Positions 2,471 to 5,276 of a stretch of 5,276 nt of DNA are shown piece by piece (positions within the stretch are counted from its first letter, which is position 1; each line of letters starts with the position of its first letter). This stretch comes from Magnetococcales bacterium (GTDB lineage Bacteria; Pseudomonadota; Magnetococcia; Magnetococcales; JADFWU01): assembly GCA_015234045.1 (NCBI GenBank), contig JADFWU010000099.1:1-5276 (forward strand), in the 5' to 3' direction. Both the position numbers and the translations under genes were made by a program. A model generated the notes under the pieces. The model searched no databases, had not been told where the DNA came from, and worked only from the letters and a program-made list of their open reading frames with translations.

Positions 2471-4591
2471 GTGACACGCTGGAATGAAGTTATTGATCGA
2501 ATTCTTTCGTATCATGCCGATGCGGATGTCGATTTATTGGAGCGTTTGCAGGTATTTGTAGACAAACTGCCTAAAGGAAAAGGGCGTGCTTGTCTAAATG
2601 TGCCACTTCATCCGCTATCTGTTGTTTCTATTCTGGTTGATCTGCGTTTGGATACGTCATCCATAGCGTCGGGTCTTCTTGTGGATAGTCTTGCGTCCAA
2701 AGTAGTTTCCCTGGAACAGATCCGACAGGAGTTTGGTGATGATATTGCCAATCTTGCTGAGGGTATTGTTCGGATATTTGGCCTGCCCAAACCAAGTAGT
2801 TCTGAGATTCAGGCTGAGGAGTTTCGCAAGATGCTTCTTGCCATGGCTCAGGATGTTCGGGTGGTGTTGGTTCGTCTTGCGCTTTGTCTTCAGCAGGTGC
2901 GAGAAGCCTCTTCCTATTCAGAGCAGGATTCCCGTGCTCTGGCCAAAGAAATTCTAGATATTTATGCACCCATTGCCCACCGTCTGGGTATTCACTGGAT
3001 CAAAAATGAGTTGGAAGAGCGTTGTTTTCAGCTCAGTGAGCCGGAAGTGTACAGCAATTTGCGAAGTCGTCTGTTGGCGCGTCGTAAAGGTGGAAAAGAT
3101 GTTGTGCAAAAGGTTATTGATTTCCTTGTTGAAAATCTAAAATTACACGGCGTTATCGGTCGTGTCTATGGCCGTGAAAAAAATCTCTACTCAATACATG
3201 GCAAGCTGAAGCGGCGTCAGACTGAAGATATGGATACGCTTTATGATTTGATCGCCTATCGGATTATCGTTGAGGAAAAGGCCGACTGTTATCGGGCTTT
3301 GGGTATGGTGCATAGCGAATTGCGCCCCATTCCAGGCTGTTTTAAGGATTATATTGCTCTGCCTAAAGGCAACGGATATCAGTCTCTTCATACCGTTGTT
3401 TGGGGTCCATTTGGCAATCGTATTGAGATTCAGATTCGTACAGAACGGATGCATGAGGTAGCAGAGAGCGGTGTTGCGGCTCACTGGGTTTATAAAGACA
3501 AAGGATTGTCGTCTCGAAAAAAGAACGATACATCGGGTTATGCGTGGCTTCAGCAGTTATTGGCGTTGCATCAGTCGGCGGATGATCCGACTAAATTTAT
3601 AGAGAATGCCAAGATTGATCTTTTTCCTGATGAGATTTATGTCTTCACGCCACAGGGTAAGATTATTACTCTGCCACGGAATGCCACGCCGGTGGATTTT
3701 GCTTATGCGGTGCATTCCGCTGTGGGTGATAGCTGTCGAGGAGCGCGAATCAATGAACGGATGGTGCCACTGAAAACACCGCTCAATACCGGTGATACGG
3801 TTGAGATTCTTCGCGGAAAACAGCGCAGTCCCAATCCCAACTGGCAACGATTTGTTGTGACCAGTAAGGCTAAACAGCGTATTGCGCGTTGGGTGAAGCA
3901 GCAACAGCGCGATCAGATGATTGATCTCGGTCGTGAGTTGCTTGATCGGGAGTCTGTCAAGTCCGGCAGTCGTTACGCGGTGACTGAAGATCAGCTGCAT
4001 ACTCTGGCACGGGAAATGGGTTTGGCTGATCAGTATGAGGTGTGGTTTCAGATTGGGGTGTCTGAGCTGTCAGCGATTCATGTTTTAAACAAGATTTATC
4101 CCGATTTGTTGACGCGTAATACCAGTAAAGGTAAGCGCATACGGCAGCATGGAGGGCGGCGTTCACGTTCTTTTGCCGAGATGGCCATGCGGACGGCTAA
4201 GTGTTGCAGTCCTGTTCCTGGTGATGTGGCGGTAGGTGTGATCTCTACTGGGCGAGGTATTACCTTACACCGTTCTTCCTGCACCAATTTAGTCGGTTTG
4301 GATAGAAAGCGTTGGATTGAGGATATTCCATGGCCGGATGGAGAAGGCATTGTCTATCCGGTTCGGATTCAGGCGATGGTTTATGAGCAGAAGCGTGTAC
4401 TGACCGAAATAACGCAAGCGTTTCATGATGCTCAATCGGACCTTATTTCTCATCGACGCCAGGATAAGGAGCGCGATCCCTGTGTATTTATGTTGGAAGC
4501 AGAGGTGAAGGATCTTGCCCATCTCCAAGTGGTGTTGAATCGTTTACGTCAAGTTCCAGGTGTTGTAGGTGTGGGGCGTAGTCGTGGTTAA
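2471..4591 (+). CDS. relA: RelA/SpoT-family (p)ppGpp synthetase with degenerate hydrolase domain
   Basis: This long RSH protein transfers pyrophosphate from ATP to GTP or GDP to make (p)ppGpp; its 706 residues are normal family length. The N-terminal HD hydrolase fold (about 40-150) is recognisable from HP at 47-48 and EEFRKMLLAMAQDVRVVLVRLA. Its catalytic motifs are gone: the usual LLHDTVEDT reads LLVDSLASK at 69-77, and the Asp of KLADRLHN is Leu138. The synthetase (about 225-345) looks intact: GREKNLYSI at 234-242, DLIAYRIIV at 259-267, YIALPKGNGYQSLHT at 294-308, IEIQIRT with Glu319, and VAAHWVYK. TGS follows (about 382-445, AYAVH with His415), then a helical region, a zinc-finger/RIS module (Cys578, Cys579, His600, Cys604) and a C-terminal ACT domain (about 625-706), all implying ribosome-linked control. 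The start is GTG with AGGAG 8 bases upstream. A synthetase-only role is inferred, so another protein should hydrolyse ppGpp. The symbol relA reflects activity type, not proven orthology. Confidence 0.95.
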   Translation: MTRWNEVIDRILSYHADADVDLLERLQVFVDKLPKGKGRACLNVPLHPLSVVSILVDLRLDTSSIASGLLVDSLASKVVSLEQIRQEFGDDIANLAEGIVRIFGLPKPSSSEIQAEEFRKMLLAMAQDVRVVLVRLALCLQQVREASSYSEQDSRALAKEILDIYAPIAHRLGIHWIKNELEERCFQLSEPEVYSNLRSRLLARRKGGKDVVQKVIDFLVENLKLHGVIGRVYGREKNLYSIHGKLKRRQTEDMDTLYDLIAYRIIVEEKADCYRALGMVHSELRPIPGCFKDYIALPKGNGYQSLHTVVWGPFGNRIEIQIRTERMHEVAESGVAAHWVYKDKGLSSRKKNDTSGYAWLQQLLALHQSADDPTKFIENAKIDLFPDEIYVFTPQGKIITLPRNATPVDFAYAVHSAVGDSCRGARINERMVPLKTPLNTGDTVEILRGKQRSPNPNWQRFVVTSKAKQRIARWVKQQQRDQMIDLGRELLDRESVKSGSRYAVTEDQLHTLAREMGLADQYEVWFQIGVSELSAIHVLNKIYPDLLTRNTSKGKRIRQHGGRRSRSFAEMAMRTAKCCSPVPGDVAVGVISTGRGITLHRSSCTNLVGLDRKRWIEDIPWPDGEGIVYPVRIQAMVYEQKRVLTEITQAFHDAQSDLISHRRQDKERDPCVFMLEAEVKDLAHLQVVLNRLRQVPGVVGVGRSRG

Positions 4592-5003: not shown

Positions 5004-5276
5004 ATGGATGATCTGGATATTGATGTGGCGCAACTCCGTCAAGTGCTTGAATCGCGTTTGGTGGAGTTGCGTGCTATCAACGATGTGGCGCGTGATTCAT
5101 GTAAGCCGGTCGAGTTGGATCAGACCTGTGTTGGCCGTCTTTCCAGGATGGATGCCATGCAGATGCAGGCCATGTCCAAGGAGACAGATCGGCGGCGTAA
5201 AATTGAGATTCAAAGAATTAAATCCGCTCTGAATCGTATTGATAGTGGTGATTTTGGCTACTGTGTTACCTGTGAT
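5004..5276 (+). CDS. Short TraR/DksA-family zinc-finger protein, 3' end outside window
   Basis: The 91 codons present read open to the right edge, so the gene is partial. The N-terminal half is a charged helical hairpin, followed by the start of the zinc-binding motif, FGYCVTCD at residues 84-91, giving the first Cys-x-x-Cys pair of the C4 zinc finger. VELDQTCVGRLSRMDAMQMQAM at about 36-57 and IKSALNRIDSGDFGYC are typical of the short (about 110-residue) TraR/DksA-like proteins found in many Proteobacteria. Such proteins bind the secondary channel of RNA polymerase and alter initiation, in DksA together with ppGpp. The ATG at 5004 is 2 bases after the lipoprotein stop with no good Shine-Dalgarno, which suggests translational coupling. 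An ATG at 5008 is in a different frame, giving a Trp/Arg-rich unrecognisable product, and is rejected. Family identity is strong; whether it works with ppGpp is unknown. Confidence 0.9.
   Translation, partial: MDDLDIDVAQLRQVLESRLVELRAINDVARDSCKPVELDQTCVGRLSRMDAMQMQAMSKETDRRRKIEIQRIKSALNRIDSGDFGYCVTCD

Follow-up and report, generated by a model that had tools for sequence, protein, structure and literature searches.

A predicted division of (p)ppGpp synthesis and hydrolysis between two long RSH proteins in the Magnetococcia

The rpoZ locus and its long RSH protein

The window, by which we mean the whole stretch of DNA analysed, is contig C116 (5,276 bp) of genome G000, an assembly of 3.65 Mb in 117 contigs that is 93% complete. 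A sequence-only reading of this DNA had guessed at a Desulfuromonadales lineage, and this guess was wrong. The genome belongs to the Magnetococcia, which were sister to the Alphaproteobacteria in our tree; among named genomes, the best match was to a Magnetococcales MAG. On the forward strand the window carries yicC (positions 120–1016), the guanylate kinase gene gmk (1018–1671), rpoZ for the RNA polymerase omega subunit (1800–2261), and a long RSH gene with a GTG start (2471–4591), whose 706-aa product is here called MagREL and whose gene was matched in all 48 genomes of the class. The remaining content is a small lipoprotein-like ORF and a DksA/TraR-like gene, the latter represented by its start. 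The order yicC-gmk-rpoZ-rel, which begins with yicC, is common to the window, G031 and G037, with synteny of yicC, gmk and rpoZ in all three. G037 is a class member in a single contig of 4,719,581 bp, which we take to be Magnetococcus marinus MC-1. The DksA/TraR-like ORF (5004–5276), the second gene downstream of the long RSH gene, is cut by the contig end; its match to TIGR02420 (26.9 bits) is below cut-off. A scan of the window for promoters and terminators gave signal at chance level.

MagREL contains an HD_4 domain (Pfam PF13328, residues 46–174, positions 2606–2992, 124.6 bits), a RelA_SpoT synthetase domain (PF04607, 3170–3502, 129.7 bits), a TGS domain (PF02824, 3635–3811), an AH/RIS region (PF19296, 3851–4195), a zinc-finger region of the form CC...H...C (residues 578–604, 4202–4282) and an ACT domain (PF13291, 4355–4579), all on the forward strand. 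The presence of HD, SYNTH, TGS, AH/RIS and ACT in one protein places it in the long RSH superfamily, and it scored 588 bits against TIGR00691 (cut-off 499). The zinc-finger residues C578, C579, H600 and C604 were invariant in alignment A1.

The hydrolase site of MagREL has lost its catalytic residues. Residues 69–77 (2675–2701) read LLVDSLASK in place of LLHDxxEDx, which removes the His and the Glu-Asp pair, and residues 135–145 (2873–2905) read RLALCLQQVRE in place of KLADRLHNMRT, which removes the Asp and the Asn. The HDxxED and KLADR motifs of bifunctional Rel[HS] are thus missing. Expressed in what we take to be the canonical Rel_Seq numbering, the losses are H77, E81, D82, D144 and N148; the window copy does retain the D of the "HD" pair. 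HP is found at residues 47–48 and GIVRI at 98–102 (2762–2776). All four motifs reported from sequence only are present, at the stated residues where these were given, and the reported loss of the His, of the Glu-Asp pair and of the second metal-binding Asp was confirmed. The region given for them, 2600–2900, does hold the motifs, except that its end clips two residues of RLALCLQQVRE.

On the synthetase side D259, FKD at 291–293, NGYQSLHT at 301–308 and E319 are kept. The earlier claim of a synthetase-only protein is borne out at this level, and MagREL is predicted from its motifs to be a monofunctional (p)ppGpp synthetase. Its CFKD motif (3338–3349) is of the RXKD type found in bifunctional Rel and not the EXDD type of RelA. 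All other rows of the Magnetococcia alignment (42 of 43) have the R of RXKD, so the change from R to C is unique to the window; it might weaken synthesis in this species. In a structure model of modest quality (mean pLDDT 65.7, 4 sequences), which we used only to judge how the N-terminal half folds, residues 10–198 aligned with solved small alarmone hydrolases (Z 12.6–14.9). Decay of the HD site in a retained fold fits a regulatory pseudo-hydrolase, a role that has been shown for E. coli RelA (PMC8012599), and the HD domain of MagREL, predicted to be inactive, is probably such a regulatory module.

Distribution and phylogeny of the synthetase

Loss of the hydrolase residues was found in all 44 Magnetococcia genomes with a readable copy of the gene. 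Forty-three well-covered rows, representing 42 genomes and one duplicate assembly, were aligned and compared with sequences of Rel, RelA and SpoT. In none of these rows did a position equivalent to H77, D82, D144 or N148 hold the catalytic residue. The synthetase D, Y, S, H and E were kept in every one, as were K and D in RXKD; two partly sequenced class copies showed the same pattern. Because the losses recur in all 43 rows, we dismissed chance and assembly error as explanations. Mean pairwise identity among the Magnetococcia synthetases was 50% in the HD domain versus 72% in SYNTH, which resembles RelA (51% and 69%) and reverses the relation in alphaproteobacterial Rel (66% and 59%). The synthetase gene was present in 27/27 high-quality class genomes. 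The single decayed copy implied by the first reading is instead one instance of an old class-wide trait, accompanied by the reciprocal loss in a second protein. Unlike in RelA, the α6-α7 loop is mostly not lengthened. Two of 45 Magnetococcia synthetase rows had α6-α7 stretches of 53 and 59 residues, compared with 22–28 in RelA. The HD match is gapped in G037 and G038, which suggests that these two long stretches belong to the MC-1-genus copies.

The position of the Magnetococcia synthetases was determined from a maximum-likelihood tree of 77 rows and 528 columns, from which the HD domain was excluded to avoid joining two decayed domains. The synthetases were monophyletic (100/100) and their sister group was the bifunctional alphaproteobacterial Rel (95/87), whereas RelA formed a separate clade (100/99). 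A constraint uniting the Magnetococcia synthetases with RelA cost 77 log-likelihood units and was rejected (p-AU 0.0028). The third position of the synthetase motif was K in 43/43 Magnetococcia and D in 9/9 RelA sequences. Taken together, the sister relationship, the rejected RelA clade and the RXKD rather than EXDD motif show that the hydrolase loss is independent of that in RelA, as the sequence-only reading had considered possible. One further long RSH, the third in genome G019 (L087, contig C185 of 4 kb), is bifunctional-looking with all motifs intact. It grouped with Firmicutes/Actinobacteria Rel and is a probable contamination or transfer.

The second long RSH and other ppGpp-related proteins

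One other HD_4 protein was found in the window's genome, a long RSH of 624 aa on contig C111. It retains HDxxED as well as the D and N further downstream, and the second hydrolase that had been predicted for this genome thus exists, as judged by sequence. Its synthetase site carries P for D and NGFRALTT for NGYQSLHT, and has lost the E of E-QIRT. Proteins of this type were aligned from 40 class genomes: H53, H77, D78, E81, D82, D144 and N148 were invariant (40/40), the synthetase D was always P, the S always A, and the H and E always replaced. All 40 accordingly combine a kept HD set with loss of the synthetase D, H and E, the pattern of SpoT[Hs]. The gene was present in 27/27 high-quality class genomes; the copy of G019 is a fragment of 252 residues with which a contig begins. 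Among 199 genomes drawn from the phylum, no relative at 50% identity or more was found outside the class.

The C111-type proteins are compact. Their α6-α7 stretch has 14 residues, as in Acinetobacter SpoT, compared with mostly 16 in bifunctional proteins and 22–28 in RelA, and their core has 32 residues versus about 45. The spacing from TGS to the zinc finger was about 63 residues versus 126–156, a value taken from the 17 members whose motif could be recognised, the rest being visibly alike; it implies the loss of most of the helical domain. No AH/RIS domain was detected by Pfam in the C111 protein. A structural study of the hydrolase-only Acinetobacter SpoT associates specialisation in hydrolysis with a shortening of flexible regions (PMC9974481), a trend that the C111 type follows. 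The C111-type copy stood on a very long branch both in a quick tree of the full catalytic half and in a tree of HD plus TGS, and in view of this branch its substrate could have changed. It may stem from a duplication within the Magnetococcia or from transfer. In the six loci examined, exonuclease III adjoined the gene in four, and no link to the stringent response was seen in any of the neighbourhoods. One contig of G010 (L089) held extra diverged hydrolase-type copies (C290, 17787–19076 and 4426–5520), one of which keeps HDxxED and one of which has an in-frame TAG.

A small HD protein of about 149 aa, probably the pbcSpo listed for MC-1, was present in about 41 of 48 class genomes, with HDxxED intact in those read. 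In class genomes that carry it, the long hydrolase is not necessarily the only one at work. In the window's genome this gene has been cut to its 37 N-terminal residues, in frame, and the rest is deleted. The remnant (L210, 1100–1210; G000 contig C29, 166599–166712) lies mid-contig on a contig of 325 kb, is followed by the gene that also lies downstream in G040, and is flanked by an HD-domain-like ORF and an ORF that we presume to be nadA-like. The small hydrolase was also not found in the near-complete genomes G001 and G030. An HD_4 search of G000, G001 and G030 matched the two long RSH proteins and no others, which suggests that the long hydrolase suffices there, provided that the synthetase is active.

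Two further proteins of the window's genome could add synthesis. The first (L004, 1306–2463; contig C95) is a 385-aa RelA_SpoT-domain protein in which the synthetase D and E are kept and the H of GYRSxH reads Y; relatives occur in 40/48 class genomes, some in multiple copies. The second (L005, 1369–3279; contig C69) has 636 aa; its RelA_SpoT domain is divergent (41 bits), and its long C-terminal extension matched nothing in Pfam.

Division of labour and comparison with known systems

We hypothesize that a synthetase-only MagREL and a hydrolase-only C111 protein together replace a single bifunctional Rel, a reading that we consider very probable, with the activities of both inferred from their residues. 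MagREL would be the (p)ppGpp synthetase of the pair, its folded but dead hydrolase domain probably serving in regulation. Its C-terminal half retains the elements by which uncharged tRNA is sensed on the ribosome, and synthesis would then be under ribosome control. Removal of (p)ppGpp would fall to the C111 protein, with its intact hydrolase site, dead synthetase site, and loops and linkers that appear shortened as in hydrolase-only Acinetobacter SpoT. The pair would take the place of the alphaproteobacterial bifunctional Rel, and the two proteins would balance one another in the cell. As part of the same explanation, and with the same high confidence, we propose that the division was fixed before the Magnetococcia radiated. 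A fuller version is likely, if less firmly held: that the reciprocal split is complete and independent of RelA/SpoT, with a reversed locus and a compact second-copy hydrolase, which in the window's genome is the sole off-switch after deletion of the small hydrolase.

Several other explanations were weighed against this one. MagREL might belong to the gammaproteobacterial RelA family, by inheritance or transfer, and its hydrolase loss would then be the known ancestral one. It does share the domain order and decay pattern of RelA and matches TIGR00691, but the tree and the AU test reject a single clade, the motif is RXKD where RelA has EXDD, the RelA model NF008124 gave 433 bits against a cut-off of 728, and the gene occupies the gmk-rpoZ-rel position, that of spoT in E. 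coli; we therefore hold this origin to be highly improbable. Hydrolysis by MagREL through non-canonical residues, which would make it bifunctional, draws on the retained fold, with its similarity to solved alarmone hydrolases, and on the D that its HD pair still has. Across the class, however, there is free variation at the metal-binding and Glu-Asp positions, unlike what a repositioned active site would show, and there is very little to recommend this possibility. That the gene is a decaying pseudogene, or has no enzymatic function, is more improbable still. The decayed HD domain and the R to C change would agree with it, but the 706-aa frame is intact and the synthetase residues are conserved class-wide at about 50% identity.

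The remaining alternative concerns the partner. The C111 protein may not be a working (p)ppGpp hydrolase but hydrolyse or bind something else, with the protein of about 149 aa as the actual hydrolase; the wide distribution and intact HDxxED of the latter are consistent with this, as is the strong divergence of the C111 proteins. The window's genome, however, retains only the 37-residue remnant, the gene was not found in G001 and G030, whose HD_4 matches are confined to the long proteins, and 40 long hydrolases share the catalytic set without variation. We consider this alternative unlikely, although less so than those above, and retain the division of labour between MagREL and C111 as the best explanation.

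In the literature read, a split of long RSHs into a making and a breaking protein was described only for the RelA/SpoT line, with completion in Moraxellaceae; a 2011 survey likewise described complete division only in Moraxellaceae (PMC3153485). No report of a synthetase/hydrolase split in Magnetococcus was found in the open-access literature on ppGpp/RSH. A second, class-wide split is an independent replicate, by which changes that are required can be told from accidents of gammaproteobacterial history: loss of metal ligands, the shortened core, loop length, and RXKD versus EXDD can all be tested in this way. The charge reversal to EXDD and the longer α6-α7 loop already seem unnecessary for a synthetase-only long RSH, as they are absent from most Magnetococcia synthetases.

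Among known systems, RelA[hS] of Beta- and Gammaproteobacteria resembles MagREL in combining an intact synthetase with a dead hydrolase domain and in having a complete ribosome-reading C-terminal half. It differs in its separate origin, in EXDD versus RXKD, in the long α6-α7 loop that most Magnetococcia synthetases lack, and in locus, since MagREL occupies the gmk-rpoZ locus that holds spoT in E. coli. Alphaproteobacterial Rel[HS] are the nearest tree relatives of MagREL and share the rpoZ-rel neighbourhood, but their bifunctional motifs were complete in 17/17 compared. Gene order is rpoZ-rel in Azospirillum (Alphaproteobacteria) and gmk-rpoZ-spoT in E. coli, and the locus thus appears reversed: the protein at the ancestral locus kept hydrolysis in E. 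coli and lost it in the Magnetococcia.

The 2011 survey lists Rel[HS], rshD[HS], divRel[HS] and pbcSpo[H] for MC-1 (PMC3153485). Two long RSHs are therefore already on record, both labelled [HS], whereas G037 and its relatives show [hS] and [Hs] residues. With the same losses in G037 as in the rest of the class, both labels look wrong, which calls into question the assignment of two bifunctional long RSHs to Magnetococcus. We infer that the rshD of the survey is the C111-type protein. The closest counterpart of the latter is the Moraxellaceae SpoT[Hs] (Acinetobacter baumannii, PDB 7QPR; PMC9974481), which has the same intact HD site, dead synthetase, 14-residue α6-α7 stretch and shortened core. 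The C111 type differs in being class-wide in the Magnetococcia on a long branch of its own, in having lost the greater part of the helical domain that lies between TGS and zinc finger, and in lying away from the rpoZ locus. The type of arrangement is thus known from Moraxellaceae; what appears to be new is that it arose independently, became fixed in the whole class and has the locus reversed.
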